From: Guptibacillus hwajinpoensis
GTDB taxonomy: Bacteria; Bacillota; Bacilli; Bacillales; Guptibacillaceae
NCBI RefSeq assembly: GCF_001039475.1
Contig: NZ_LELK01000004.1
Coordinates: 1,405,086 to 1,469,085 of the forward strand
DNA length: 64,000 bases
Reading direction: 5' to 3'
The notes beneath the pieces were generated by a model, which saw only the letters and a program-made list of their open reading frames with translations, did no database searches and had not been told where the DNA came from. Positions 16,022 to 48,626 of the stretch are shown one piece after another. Numbering within the stretch: position 1 is the first letter of the stretch; each line of letters starts with the position of its first letter. A program made the position numbers and the translations under genes.

Positions 16022-16290
16022 CAATTCAGTAAATCGATACGAAGCTCCGATGAGGAAGAAAAGTAAAAAAAATCCGGGTTGATCAGAGAGGAAATGCCTT
16101 GGCTGCGAGCATTTCTCAATTCCGTTTTTTCGAAAGACACTTCCAAGGATCGTCTCCGAACAGGTAGCTCAGTAGGGGATGACGTAAACAGGCGTTAACT
16201 GTTTAAGCGGAAGGACTCGTCCTTCCATTAGGGTGGCACCGCGGGTAACTCTCGTCCCTGAATTTCGATTCAGGGATGGGAGTTTTTTTG
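16022..16290 (+). promoter_or_regulatory. T-box riboswitch leader of hisS-aspS
   Basis: tRNA-sensing leader. Seen: Stem I with GGAAG/CTTCC base pairing, an AGTA motif on the 5' side of the specifier loop, the distal AGAGAGG...TTGGCTG elements, and GAAAGACAC on the 3' side. The T-box proper, AGGGTGGCACCGCGG, is at 16230-16244. A terminator with stem TCCCTGAAT/ATTCAGGGA and a T-run (about 16250-16289) ends the leader. Uncharged tRNA pairs with the T-box UGG and favours antitermination. The specifier region reads GAC at 16136-16138 and, overlapping, CAC at 16138-16140; these are Asp and His codons, fitting the two downstream synthetases. Confidence 0.92.
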
Positions 16291-19523: not shown

Positions 19524-19727
19524 ACAAGTTAACGAAGAGTCCTGAAGTGTACGTTTACTTCCATAATAATTTGAGCCAACACTTTTACAACGGGAGCTTG
19601 ATTCTTTCCATCCAGAGTACATGCCTCGGTAGCTGAGGACGTACGAAGGACGGAATAGGGCACCCACCTGCCAATGCAGGTTCAACAATTATGGAAAGGA
19701 CGGCACAGTTGGGGCTCTTCTTTTTTT
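19524..19727 (+). ncRNA. bsrB: 6S RNA (BsrB/SsrS type)
   Basis: Non-coding RNA of about 200 nt that mimics an open promoter and binds sigma-A RNA polymerase. Evidence: a good promoter directly upstream, no reading frame, and closing-stem halves GAAGAGTCC (about 19534) and GGGGCTCTTC (19711-19720) followed by a T-run. Long arms and a large central bulge region lie between. The position between aspS and rarA is that of bsrB in B. subtilis. The exact 5' end is inferred from the promoter. Confidence 0.85.
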
Positions 19728-45288: not shown

Positions 45289-45978
45289 TTAATACGTCAT
45301 GATTTCTTTTAGACGTCCTTGCCACTTTTCATCGTCGAGAATAATTTGAAAAGAGATGCGTCGATTTTTCTTATAAGCTTCATTTGTATTTTCAGCAATA
45401 ACAGGCTTATATTCAGAATAACCTGTTGCGGCGAGGTACTTTGCATAATCAGGTGTTGAAAGTCGCGGATTTGCTTTCATTAATTCTTTTACAACCGCAA
45501 CGGAACGGTCCGCTGAAAGTGTCCAATTATCATAAGGGACTTTATCTGTATGACCTTCAATTAGAATGATATATAGATATTGGCTAATGTCTTTTTCATC
45601 TATTAAATTGGCAAATACATCTGCTAAGTCGTTAAGTACTTTTTTGCCTTCTGGACTAATTTCAGCACTACCAGTATCGAATAAAATATCTCCCTCAACA
45701 GATATCGTATTATTGGGACCACGAACAACTTGATCTTTCCCTACATTTTCCTCAAGCTGGTTTTCTATTAAATCACTAATATGTTTTTTAACATCCGCGA
45801 CTTTTGCGAGTTCTTGCTTCATTACCGTTTGATCATAAGCGTCATAAATCATCTGAACAAAAGCAATGATGGCAATGAAAAGCATAACAAGAACGATCAT
45901 TGCCATCATATCAGCGAAACTTGGCCAATAATGCTCTTCATCACTTTGTATCTGAAATCTTCTCTTTCTATTCTTCAT
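45289..45978 (-). CDS. MotB/ZorB-like OmpA-domain stator protein
   Basis: 229 aa membrane protein. One N-terminal TM helix (about 21-45), preceded by charged residues, carries PSFADMMAMIVLV with an Asp at residue 23, the position of the proton-carrying Asp in MotB/ZorB-type stators. The C-terminal OmpA peptidoglycan-binding domain has ILFDTGSAEISPEGKKVL, EGHTDKVPYDNWTLSADRS (about 141-160) and NRRISFQI. It overlaps its upstream partner by four bases. It is not a flagellar MotB by context: no motility genes are nearby. Similarity to ZorB of Zorya defence systems is by architecture, and no effector gene accompanies it. Confidence 0.75.
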   Translation of the reverse strand: MKNRKRRFQIQSDEEHYWPSFADMMAMIVLVMLFIAIIAFVQMIYDAYDQTVMKQELAKVADVKKHISDLIENQLEENVGKDQVVRGPNNTISVEGDILFDTGSAEISPEGKKVLNDLADVFANLIDEKDISQYLYIILIEGHTDKVPYDNWTLSADRSVAVVKELMKANPRLSTPDYAKYLAATGYSEYKPVIAENTNEAYKKNRRISFQIILDDEKWQGRLKEIMTY

Positions 45979-47504
45979 CGGTTATCACTGATTATTCGAG
46001 ATGGCATAGGCTGAGTTGGTGATTGTCTTCTTACTTGTTCCTCATACAGCCGAAGTTGAAGCTGATAGGATTCAGAGAGTTGATGTTGAATATCTTTTAG
46101 TTCGCGAGCAAGGCCCTGATACAGGGAGTCTAGACTGTTCGATAGCGACCTCATCTCGTGCTGAAGAGGCTGATCACGTTCCATTTTATGAATAATAGGT
46201 TCAAGAGCTTCACGTTTGATCTTATCAAGCGATGTATACCATGCTTTCTCTAGTTGGGAAACGGACTCTGCAAAATCCTGCGACGCTCTTCCATATTGAT
46301 TCTGTTTATCTTGATAACGATAATACCATTCATCCTGCATTTGGTGAACGCGACGTTCAAGTTCTTCTTGTGAACCCTGATACCGCTGCATTTGTTCATC
46401 AAGTCCTCTTAAATAATTCTGACCTGTTTCCTCCGCCTTTTTCTGCGTTTCTTTTATTAGCTGATCAGAACGTTGCACAAGCTGTTCGAACTTGCGTTGT
46501 CCAGTCTCATGATGCCTTGATAGCGCTTGAAGCTGATTCTCTAGCGTTTTCAGTTTGTTTCCTAGCTCAAGAATACCATTAGTAGCTTTTTCTTGTACGC
46601 CGTCTAATTGGGTAAAAGATTCTTGAAGCTTGATACTAAAAGTTTCGAGTGTAGAAGTGCTATTCGAAAATTGTTCTGTATAGGTTCGTTGAGAAGTTAA
46701 AATCGCTTGAACTTCCTTCATAGCTTGATCCAACCCAGAAGTGAAGTGAACCATACTAGAGGAGAAATCACCAAGTGTTTCTTGAAAACTATCTTGAATT
46801 CGCCCTGCTAAACGGTCTAAGATACGCTCCATTTCGTCATGAGGCTTTTCTTGAGATAGACTTGCATTCAGGTTGTGATCAAGAAGAGATTCACAGTCTG
46901 ATATAATTTTTTCTAAATAATAAGCAGTTGTTCGCCCTCCAGTTAAGACACCATTCTGGATCAGTGTTAGAAAGAGTGCATTCCCAATTCCTGCGATACT
47001 TGTAATGAACGCTACACTCATTCCTTGAAACGGACTAGAGATAGCTTCTATCACAGAAGCGAGGTTCAAATTCGCATCATCAGGTCTTTGGGACAAAAAC
47101 ATGAGCGTCTCTTGCATAGAGGAAATCGCCATCGTTAACCCAATGAACGTACCAAGTATTCCGATAATGATGGAGGTAGGTGGAAGTTGTTGCATAAATC
47201 TCATGACACCACCAGCTGGTACACGAACAAAGCCAAAGAGTGGAACGGATTCTTTGAAGAAATGTTTTTCAATAAGTGCCTGCGTGTTTACTTGAGAAAC
47301 GCCAGCAAGGTGATAAGTTTTGTATTCTTTCATGACATTCTGAATCCAAGGAGCAGTATAAGAATTTGATTCACTTTGTTGTTCGGCATTTTCAATATCT
47401 CTTAGCCATTGTTTCATTTGCAAGCTAATCTGAATGGTAGCTGTAACACCCAAAATAGCAAGAAAACCAATGATAAAAAGCACGATTGTCGTAACATTGA
47501 GCAT
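45975..47504 (-). CDS. MotA/TolQ/ExbB-type channel with long coiled-coil tail (ZorA-like)
   Basis: 509 aa membrane protein. TM1 (about 5-27), TM2 (about 108-128, PPTSIIIGILGTFIGLTMA) and TM3 (about 161-184, GMSVAFITSIAGIGNALFL) form a MotA/ExbB-like core with the typical G-TFIGL and proximal-to-TM3 S-PFQGM pattern. Residues about 210-495 are predicted coiled coil, rich in Gln/Glu, forming a long cytoplasmic tail as in ZorA. GGAGGTGAG precedes the ATG at 47504. It is transcribed away from the small-ORF array. Function unknown; likely an ion-driven motor with the next gene. Confidence 0.75.
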   Translation of the reverse strand: MLNVTTIVLFIIGFLAILGVTATIQISLQMKQWLRDIENAEQQSESNSYTAPWIQNVMKEYKTYHLAGVSQVNTQALIEKHFFKESVPLFGFVRVPAGGVMRFMQQLPPTSIIIGILGTFIGLTMAISSMQETLMFLSQRPDDANLNLASVIEAISSPFQGMSVAFITSIAGIGNALFLTLIQNGVLTGGRTTAYYLEKIISDCESLLDHNLNASLSQEKPHDEMERILDRLAGRIQDSFQETLGDFSSSMVHFTSGLDQAMKEVQAILTSQRTYTEQFSNSTSTLETFSIKLQESFTQLDGVQEKATNGILELGNKLKTLENQLQALSRHHETGQRKFEQLVQRSDQLIKETQKKAEETGQNYLRGLDEQMQRYQGSQEELERRVHQMQDEWYYRYQDKQNQYGRASQDFAESVSQLEKAWYTSLDKIKREALEPIIHKMERDQPLQHEMRSLSNSLDSLYQGLARELKDIQHQLSESYQLQLRLYEEQVRRQSPTQPMPSRIISDNR

Positions 47505-47650
47505 GTTCTCACCTCCGCTTTGTATATATGTATGTCCTACATGACAGAACTTTCTTCCTTTCTTGTGAAGTGCTGATAGAAGGTGAGGGTGTAAATAATT
47601 GTCGAAAAAGATAGTATTAATAAAATATTTGATTAATTTAGTAAAAAAGG

Positions 47651-47679
47651 TTTACAAAGGAAATGGAGATGGATATACT
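47651..47679 (+). promoter_or_regulatory. Promoter of the small-ORF array
   Basis: TTTACA (47651-47656), 17-base spacer, TATACT (47674-47679), about 40 bases before the first small gene. Confidence 0.65.
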
Positions 47680-47708
47680 TACCTATGAAAACAATATGAA
47701 AAAAGGAG

Positions 47709-47782
47709 GTCGAACAGAATGGTGAACATTTCAATGGATTTAACTACTGTTGCTACAACTAAATATGTCTACTCTGTTCGAC
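47709..47782 (+). promoter_or_regulatory. Long-range hairpin enclosing the first small ORF's start
   Basis: GTCGAACAGA (47709-47718) is the exact reverse complement of TCTGTTCGAC (47773-47782). The 5' arm sits between the ribosome site AGGAGG and the ATG at 47719, so pairing would hide the start site. Confidence 0.55.
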
Positions 47783-47796
47783 TCGGTCCTCTATAA
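47719..47796 (+). CDS. 25-residue leader-like peptide
   Basis: ATG 47719 follows AAAAGGAGG. It reads MVNISMDLTTVATTKYVYSV and five further residues. Its stop lies in the loop of a small hairpin (CCTCT-ATA-AGAGG at 47788-47800) that is followed by a T-run. It could be a regulatory leader peptide; expression is not proven. Confidence 0.5.
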   Translation: MVNISMDLTTVATTKYVYSVRLGPL

Positions 47797-47813
47797 GAGG
47801 GTATCCTTTTTTA
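47788..47813 (+). terminator. Small hairpin with T-run, possible attenuator
   Basis: CCTCT/AGAGG hairpin followed by GTATCCTTTTTT, overlapping the end of the 25-residue ORF. Confidence 0.5.
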
Positions 47814-47828
47814 CTAACGGATTGAAAA

Positions 47829-47897
47829 GCCGCAGGTCGACGCCTGCGGTATTTCTATGCTTTTTTTGCCGCAGGAACATGTCCTGTGGCTTTTTGT
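47829..47897 (+). terminator. Two hairpins in tandem within the small-ORF leader
   Basis: CCGCAGG/CCTGCGG hairpin, then GCCGCAGGA/TCCTGTGGC hairpin followed by TTTTTG; the 5' sequences GCCGCAGG are repeated, so alternative pairings are possible. Confidence 0.6.
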
Positions 47898-47923
47898 ATC
47901 CAAATTTTGAGAGGAGGAAAAGA

Positions 47924-47983
47924 AATGAGCATTGGAAAAACAAGTGTTGGAAAGCAATATCAGAGGAGAAAATGGGTCCCCTG
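47924..47983 (+). CDS. 19-residue basic peptide
   Basis: ATG 47924 with GAGAGGAGG upstream. The 19-residue product, MSIGKTSVGKQYQRRKWVP, is strongly basic. Second of six short frames in a row, each with its own strong ribosome site. Confidence 0.45.
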
Positions 47984-48013
47984 AAATAATAGAAAAGAAG
48001 GGAGGTCGTTAAC

Positions 48014-48160
48014 ATGCTACCATTCCATTTACTGATCATAACAAGAGTGAAGAGCGTCTTCAGAAGAAGCTTATCTTCAGAACTGCATCAGCACTCAATT
48101 CATAATCGTTTGGCTGAAGATGAAAGCAAACGATACCGTGCTTCGATGTGGCTATCCTAA
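48014..48160 (+). CDS. YrzI-like tandem small protein, copy 1
   Basis: 48 residues, ATG 48014 with GGGAGG upstream. N-terminus MLPFHLLIITRVKSVFRRSL: a short hydrophobic start then basic residues, the pattern shared with the next members of this array and with the Bacillus YrzI tandem small-protein family. Confidence 0.6.
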   Translation: MLPFHLLIITRVKSVFRRSLSSELHQHSIHNRLAEDESKRYRASMWLS

Positions 48161-48185
48161 TTTAAACTAAAAAGGAGAAATGATC

Positions 48186-48332
48186 ATGTTAACGATAAAC
48201 TTAATATTTGTAACGATTGGCATCCGTGTTCACGAGAGAACAATGAGAGAAGAAAAGCATTATGTACGAGTGAAGGGGCAAATGGAACGCAAAACAGAGC
48301 GAATCACCGAAAATCAGCCCTGGTTATTCTAA
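48186..48332 (+). CDS. YrzI-like tandem small protein, copy 2
   Basis: 48 residues, ATG 48186 after AAAAAGGAG. N-terminus MLTINLIFVTIGIRVHERTM, then a highly charged segment ending QPWLF. Similar in size and pattern to copies 1 and 3. Confidence 0.6.
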   Translation: MLTINLIFVTIGIRVHERTMREEKHYVRVKGQMERKTERITENQPWLF

Positions 48333-48359
48333 AATTATAAATTAGAAAGGAAGATGAAA

Positions 48360-48422
48360 ATGAAAGCACCGAATCAATTAGCGATACAAGAATGGATGAC
48401 CGTAGAGAAAGGGTTGACCTGA
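48360..48422 (+). CDS. 20-residue peptide with Glu-Lys-Gly motif
   Basis: ATG 48360 after AGAAAGGAAG. It reads MKAPNQLAIQEWMTVEKGLT. Adjacent Glu and Lys codons (GAG AAA, 48405-48410) occur late in the frame. Located between YrzI-like copies 2 and 3. Confidence 0.5.
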   Translation: MKAPNQLAIQEWMTVEKGLT

Positions 48423-48452
48423 AAGGAATTAACAAGAAAGGAGTGGAGTGGA

Positions 48453-48596
48453 GTGACTTTAAATCTATTGTTTGCTACAATCACAGTCTCAATTAAGCGT
48501 AGTCGGAAATCGCTTGATCAGGAGTTAGACGTTGTTCGAAAAAAAGGCTTGATTGAATCAAACCAATATAAACAAAGTTTCTATATCCATCATTAA
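48453..48596 (+). CDS. yrzI: YrzI-like tandem small protein, copy 3 (closest to YrzI)
   Basis: 47 residues, GTG 48453 with AAAGGAGTGG upstream. N-terminus MTLNLLFATITVSIKRSRKS closely resembles Bacillus YrzI. In B. subtilis yrzI follows yrhC, as it does here apart from the inserted motor pair. Function unknown. Confidence 0.65.
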   Translation: MTLNLLFATITVSIKRSRKSLDQELDVVRKKGLIESNQYKQSFYIHH

Positions 48597-48603
48597 TCCG
48601 ATA

Positions 48604-48626
48604 AGACAGGGTTCTCCCTGTCTTTC
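48604..48626 (+). terminator. Terminator of the small-ORF array
   Basis: GACAGGG/CCCTGTC hairpin with TTCT loop, followed by TTTCT. Confidence 0.75.

Follow-up and report, generated by a model that had tools for sequence, protein, structure and literature searches.

A six-frame array in Guptibacillus hwajinpoensis as a probable yrzI (spyTA)-type operon with a leader RNA and an S1025-like short frame

An array of six short frames (ORF1 to ORF6; 25, 19, 48, 48, 20 and 47 aa) occupied positions 47719-48596 on the forward strand of the window, the 64,000-nucleotide stretch of the Guptibacillus hwajinpoensis genome that was analysed. As originally predicted, all six frames were present at these lengths, each with a purine-rich ribosome site. 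ORF1 (47719-47796; MVNISMDLTTVATTKYVYSVRLGPL) is a putative leader frame of 25 aa, and ORF2 (47925-47984; 19 aa) ends in KWVP followed by a TGA stop. ORF3 (48014-48160; 48 aa) encodes a conserved peptide whose likeness to YrzI is confined to its start, while ORF4 (48186-48332; 48 aa) and ORF6 (48453-48596; 47 aa, with a GTG start) encode peptides that are YrzI-type by profile comparison. Between them lies ORF5 (48360-48422; 20 aa; MKAPNQLAIQEWMTVEKGLT), a short frame resembling S1025 of Bacillus subtilis. Instead of the six equal genes of the original prediction, the array thus comprised a leader (ORF1), what is likely a truncated short frame (ORF2), three longer peptides (ORF3, ORF4 and ORF6) and an S1025-like frame (ORF5), all on the forward strand.

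A promoter-like site (TTTACA-17-TATACT, 47651-47679, forward strand) preceded the array with 10/12 matches, in a scan that overall did not exceed chance (6 promoter-like sites compared to 8.1 expected in shuffles). It was kept as TTTAC(A/T)-17-TATACT in the 14 genomes of the genus, in agreement with the promoter predicted before the array. The single terminator predicted along with it did not hold, as the interval from the end of ORF1 to ORF2 holds three more terminator-like hairpins on that strand. These are a small hairpin spanning the ORF1 stop (47786-47802; scan and folding), which several genomes of the genus carry in a partly disrupted form, and two hairpins returned by the terminator scan, H1 (47829-47850; GCCGCAGG..CCTGCGGT) and H2 (47868-47890; GCCGCAGG..CCTGTGGC). 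Over both strands, the terminator scan gave 6 terminator-like sites, compared to 2.0 in shuffles. The final hairpin of the operon (AAGACAGGG..CCCTGTCTT; 48603-48624, forward strand) is terminator-like by folding (z -3.9) and was absent from the output of the terminator scan; at its position in the genus alignment, a hairpin with changed bases was seen by eye.

In the window, the array sits between yrhC (upstream) and sigK (downstream), together with a MotA/OmpA-like gene pair, nadE and other genes. Three other genomes of the genus, those compared for gene order, share the arrangement yrhC, MotA/OmpA pair, array, nadE and sigK. The pair adjoining the array (45289-47504, reverse strand) consists of a MotA/ZorA-like and a MotB/OmpA/ZorB-like gene, which scored under the NCBIfam cut-offs for ZorA and ZorB. 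Among 14 distant loci searched with the window proteins as queries (L065-L078), YrzI lay between yrhC and sigK in four (L067, L070, L074 and L078) and no more than 6 kb from yrhC in three more (L065, L066 and L073), with sigK located between yrhC and YrzI in L066; in the other 7 of the 14, neither yrhC nor sigK was near YrzI. The motif TGTCGAA (47600-47606, forward strand; read in the sequence), which we take to be Spo0A-box-like, precedes the -35 site by about 45 bases. TGTCG-N-AA was invariant at this aligned position throughout the genus (14/14), and the exact TGTCGAA occurred there in 11 of the 14 genomes and in 13 of 14 anywhere in the aligned upstream stretch. As a general feature of such loci the box was discarded, since a search of the 260 bases preceding the leader frames of 20 other loci did not find it.

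The array stretch had a match in every one of the 14 genomes of the genus; identity to the 13 besides its own was 67-90%, and in G012 and G001 the match spanned only part of the query. In the oriented alignment, a counterpart of each of the six frames was open in all 14 genomes, with ribosome sites; the starts used in the genus include TTG or GTG, and the ORF5 start assigned by the script in G003 was an ATT with in-frame ATG codons just upstream. dN/dS was calculated from Nei-Gojobori counts for 7 selected pairs and for the full set of 91, the two values being given in that order. The ratios were low for ORF3 (0.27 and 0.21), ORF4 (0.24 and 0.27), ORF5 (0.20 and 0.28) and ORF6 (0.18 and 0.21), intermediate for ORF2 (0.56 and 0.70) and close to one for ORF1 (1.00 and 0.92). 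By these counts, ORF3 to ORF6 are under purifying selection as peptides (0.18-0.28), which argues for a real coding array beyond chance. The purifying selection proposed as a check on all the frames was therefore found for these four and not for ORF1 (about 1) or ORF2 (0.56-0.70). In ORF2 the constraint is on its end, KWVP and the TGA stop being present in 14/14 genomes. ORF1, judged by the same ratios, is not selected as a peptide, and the possibility that every frame is an ordinary small protein was ruled out for it by its dN/dS of about 1 together with the frame changes of its 3' arm described below. This would explain why two of the six frames resemble poor genes: what is conserved appears to be the RNA in ORF1 and the end in ORF2.

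Membership of the YrzI family, predicted for all three longer frames, was borne out for two of them. Against a profile of 17 YrzI proteins, ORF6 matched at 97.5% over 42 columns and ORF4 at 96.8% over 33 columns, whereas ORF3 reached only 13%, so that it was not shown to be YrzI; ORF3 resembled ORF4 weakly (52%). The profile alignments, from which near-duplicates were dropped, retained 11 (A5), 10 (A6) and 9 (A7) of the 14 genomes, and the YrzI profile (A8) held its 17 proteins from 30 loci. With the Pfam model Bac_small_YrzI (PF09501; TIGR02413), all nine ORF6 members scanned gave matches at E up to 1 (best 5.8e-5), which confirms the prediction that the last frame is the nearest to YrzI. Six of ten ORF4 members did so too, as against none of eleven ORF3 members. 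The window proteins themselves fell below the curated cut-offs or were unmatched: ORF6 scored 17.2 bits for PF09501, below the Pfam gathering cut-off of 23, ORF4 was not among the matches listed and ORF3 had no match. ORF4 and ORF6 are therefore called YrzI-type on the basis of profile comparison, the window copies being under the Pfam cut-off. PF09501 was found in 39 of 299 genomes of the class, and the genome of the window is not one of them, which indicates that Pfam alone misses such arrays. An AlphaFold2 model of ORF4 (a single helix; pLDDT 68, pTM 0.31) was too weak for use.

ORF5 ends in VEKGLT in all 14 genomes of the genus. The ribosome-associated nuclease Rae1 cleaves ahead of Lys codons; its substrate S1025, the antidote of spyTA, is 17 codons long, with the cut falling between Glu13 and Lys14. 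The GAG-AAA (Glu-Lys) codon pair of ORF5 (48405-48410, forward strand), lying within GTAGAGAAAGG in 14/14 genomes, is the predicted point of Rae1 cleavage, and a Rae1 gene (PF05991) is present in the genome of the window. Short frames ending in EK(D/G) plus 1-4 residues represented 11 of 38 short frames near YrzI, from five genera, compared to 0 of 75 at other places in these loci. Such frames, which lie beside YrzI in many genera, resemble S1025, the short frame of the yrzI (spyTA) operon in B. subtilis that Rae1 uses as a substrate. When new and named loci were included, the Glu codon of EK(D/G) frames was GAG in 26 of 27, a set in which some members are close relatives and one genome is represented by two loci (L059 and L101). 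This count was drawn from 30 rows, three of which were set aside, all with GAA: two on the strand opposite to the array (L046, which reads EKE, and L052) and a 9-codon frame reading EKE (L117). As GAG accounts for a share of only 0.29 of the Glu codons in the long frames of the window and 0.20-0.44 in 17 other loci, its use in 26 of 27 despite GAA being the commoner codon points to a constraint on the RNA.

The EK motif is nevertheless common rather than universal among the short frames surveyed, as those of a number of arrays lack it (GDST, DDT, ERDTD and others). ORF2 is likely an S1025-type short frame after loss of its EK site, a reading that comes from one genome, that of the sister genus (G014), in which the counterpart of ORF2 reads MIQCKKKKWITKEKGLT and ends in KEKGLT. 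The same counterpart makes it less likely that ORF2 is a stalling peptide with a Pro-stop end (KWVP-TGA, 14/14). The array of this sister genus (L113, about 1748-2684) contains three short EK frames, one ORF3-like frame and three further long frames, with a long frame after each short one.

The start, ribosome site and stop of ORF1 were present in 14/14 genomes. Its ribosome site is able to pair with the frame's own 3' codons, forming a predicted leader stem with a 5' arm (GGTCGAACAGA; 47708-47718, forward strand) that overlaps the ribosome site and a 3' arm (TCTGTTCGACT; 47773-47783, forward strand) within the end of ORF1. In other genera, the first frame upstream of YrzI was built alike, the ribosome site AGGAGGTCGAA pairing with TTCGACC in the 3' part of the frame. 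The stem was significant against dinucleotide shuffles (p < 0.05) in 24 of 30 leaders, the other six failing the test, compared to 5 of 168 control gene starts. Compensated pairs were observed between loci (GGTCATC/GATGACC and GGCTGAA/TTCAGCC), in a comparison for which the 3' arm had been picked for its pairing, and within the genus the predicted pairs varied little (double changes in 3 of 53). The 3' arm falls in different reading frames in different loci and genera, which suggests that the RNA rather than the peptide is kept and would account for the dN/dS of about 1 in ORF1. Arrest of ribosomes at the RPAP of ORF1 was dropped as a candidate, since the same bases are read in another frame in other genera. 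The stem is also consistent with ordinary autoregulation of the small frame.

Each of the hairpins H1 and H2 can pair with itself or with the other. The swapped pairing was scored on 22 loci (30 were examined, of which 26 had two hairpins) and reached 784.4 within loci compared to a mean of 653.7 between loci, a value attained by none of 2000 shuffles; shared ancestry of H1 and H2 could also give such an excess. The 3' arm of the leader stem can in turn pair with GGTCGA in H1 of the window, and this pairing was weakly above the between-locus shuffles, 19 of 1000 of which reached it (24 loci). Judging from these predicted pairings, H1 and H2 are likely to act as a switch.

A covariance model built from 25 leaders returned 26 matches in 25 of the 299 genomes of the class, 19 of which came from leaders used in building the model. 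Twenty-three matches, including that of the window, lay beside YrzI, one was in a YrzI-like array (L103) and two were attributed to chance; the seven matches from outside model building comprised four beside YrzI, L103 and the two chance matches. The latter, judged by eye, fell on the start of a topoisomerase-like gene (L105) and on the start of a secreted-protein gene (L106). In L103 (G122, a genome with no PF09501 match), the leader is followed by an array whose short frames end in VMTDT and VVIDP. Just 21 of the 39 PF09501-bearing genomes in the class sample had a leader match.

In a held-out search of 40 genomes drawn from the order and family, each from a different genus and absent from model building (40 of the 45 genomes G014-G058, leaving out G026, G028, G042, G054 and G056, whose YrzI loci had already been obtained), the leader was found in 14. 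Thirteen of the 14 held-out leaders precede YrzI-type genes, and the proteins of these, when tested, were above the Pfam cut-off in 11 of 13 cases and below it in two. The remaining leader (L121 in G041; about 1501-1585) is followed by two hairpins and an ABC-transporter ATPase gene at about 1727, whose best NCBIfam match is drrA-like and below its cut-off. At least two terminator-like hairpins followed each of the 14 held-out leaders; this count had no shuffle control. Of seven genomes in the family to which G041 belongs, two had a leader match, G041 and its congener G350, and in G350 the leader precedes two YrzI-type genes, the first scoring 47.8 bits. The placement of the leader before an ABC-transporter gene in the one and before two YrzI-type genes in the other suggests that it is portable. 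Searches against Rfam at gathering scores gave no match over the array and, in 20 related loci, no family match besides four tRNAs in L059; the lone sub-threshold match at E up to 1 reached 24.7 bits compared to 67.

The type of operon is already known. The yrzI operon of B. subtilis is described as encoding several peptides of unknown function and as being induced together with bmrCD upon depletion of the tRNA maturase (PMC10100781). S1026 is placed upstream of yrzI (PMC3498285), a yrzI-luciferase fusion is tabulated as a reporter of protein synthesis inhibition (PMC7604286), and yrzI and bmrBCD are both upregulated in a whiA mutant (PMC10714963). The seven Rae1 candidates reported include S1024, S1025, S1026 and yrzI (PMC10632193), S1025 being the first characterised Rae1 substrate (PMC11780869), and Rae1 is described as acting in the ribosomal A site (PMC6613710; PMC12320835). 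The name spyTA appears in the title of Gilet 2025. The statement in the original prediction that the function of such arrays is not known was accordingly overtaken in part, as the B. subtilis yrzI operon is a documented candidate Rae1 target and a 2025 title gives it the name spyTA; the remainder of the statement stood.

Like the window array, the B. subtilis operon (S1026, yrzI, S1025 and S1024; spyTA) encodes several peptides, including yrzI and the short S1025; the window array differs in its three longer and two short frames, in an ORF2 lacking the EK end and in an ORF5 ending in EKGLT rather than EKDQV. Two loci taken as Bacillus in the strict sense (L035 and L036) showed a leader, YrzI and a short frame reading MFRIELL(N/I)HYTMEKDQV. 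The genomes scanned under their names were those of two Metabacillus species, one Peribacillus and Bacillus sp. PAMC26568. The bmrB-bmrCD operon of B. subtilis has a leader frame and alternative stem-loops upstream of the controlled genes, a layout like that predicted for the array; bmrCD is under ribosome-mediated attenuation (PMC4191407), and both it and the yrzI operon include Rae1 candidates. The bmrB terminator lies inside the leader frame, whereas in the array the main hairpins come after the frame, and the leader has its own ribosome site in a predicted pairing. Within g44, the putative Bacillus genus, three genomes had one leader match each, at yrzI, and a fourth had none; with matches at yrzI only, the model found no bmr leader. 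No description of the leader RNA was found in the searched literature.

Taken together, the array is probably a yrzI/spyTA operon subject both to ribosome-mediated attenuation and to translation-dependent decay by Rae1, a proposal built on comparison of sequences as regards the frames, the selection on ORF3 to ORF6, the leader stem, the tandem hairpins, the EK frames and the Rae1 gene. It would represent the genus version of the operon, expanded so as to include three longer peptides and two short frames, and would read the state of the ribosome twice. ORF1 would serve as a leader frame whose ribosome site is shut by its own 3' end, and its translation would decide whether the hairpins terminate transcription or the polymerase proceeds; presumably, read-through would be most likely when ribosomes are slowed or stalled. 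During normal translation of ORF5, Rae1, if it cleaves in this genus as in B. subtilis, would enter the A site and cut before Lys at GAG|AAA, so that the message would be destroyed. Poor translation would thus open the attenuator and spare the mRNA, giving a burst of YrzI-type peptides, while normal translation would keep them low. By analogy with the published name spyTA, the products may act as a growth-limiting peptide and a small antidote.

A plain tandem array of sporulation YrzI peptides, controlled by Spo0A and later sigma factors, with the short frames as remnants or spacers and the hairpins as ordinary pauses, would suit the Pfam label of the YrzI family (probable sporulation protein), the TGTCG-N-AA box kept upstream in the genus, the proximity of sigK to the array here and to YrzI in 5 of the 14 distant loci, and the several YrzI copies in a row in some arrays (L046). 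Such an array appears unlikely, however, given that purifying selection on ORF5 is about as strong as on the longer frames, that the leader RNA precedes YrzI in many genera whereas a TGTCGAA-type box was not found in 20 other loci, and that the B. subtilis operon responds to translation defects. The short EK peptide might alternatively be an antidote that binds a YrzI-type peptide, its EK(D/G) end being a protein-binding motif and cutting by Rae1 incidental. We regard this as possible but doubtful: the name spyTA, as it stands in the 2025 title, the adjacency of short and long frames in many arrays, the three short frames of the sister genus with a long frame after each and an additional long frame, and the dN/dS of 0.20-0.28 in ORF5 all speak for a functional peptide partner, yet neither the near-exclusive use of GAG (26 of 27, with GAA the commoner codon) nor the retention of an ORF2 lacking EK would be expected from it.

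The leader stem might also merely limit translation of ORF1, with the hairpins forming a fixed partial terminator and no switch. The covariation, which favours the stem over the alternative pairings, agrees with this simpler arrangement, but it seems unlikely in view of the at least two hairpins after the leader in 14/14 held-out loci, the greater sharing of hairpin stems within a locus than between loci, the like layout preceding an ABC-transporter gene in one genome, and the joint upregulation of yrzI and the leader-attenuated bmrBCD in the whiA mutant.

Under the attenuated and Rae1-cleaved operon that we prefer, a wider proposal can be put forward tentatively, at slightly less than even confidence. 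The leader RNA, widespread in the order of the window and also occurring in other orders of the class, would be an undescribed and portable element linking the speed of ribosomes to arrays of both short and long peptide frames; each short frame would have, or would once have had, a Rae1 cut site, and the mRNA would be placed under both attenuation and ribosome-dependent self-destruction. The question touched is why cells keep a message that is destroyed by translating it, the yrzI operon holding the first characterised Rae1 substrate, and the many loci now available, with their defined leader RNA and candidate cut-site codons, make this question testable by mutation in a laboratory Bacillus. 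Elsewhere in the window, a T-box leader (16041-16262) and a 6S RNA (19536-19719) were observed.
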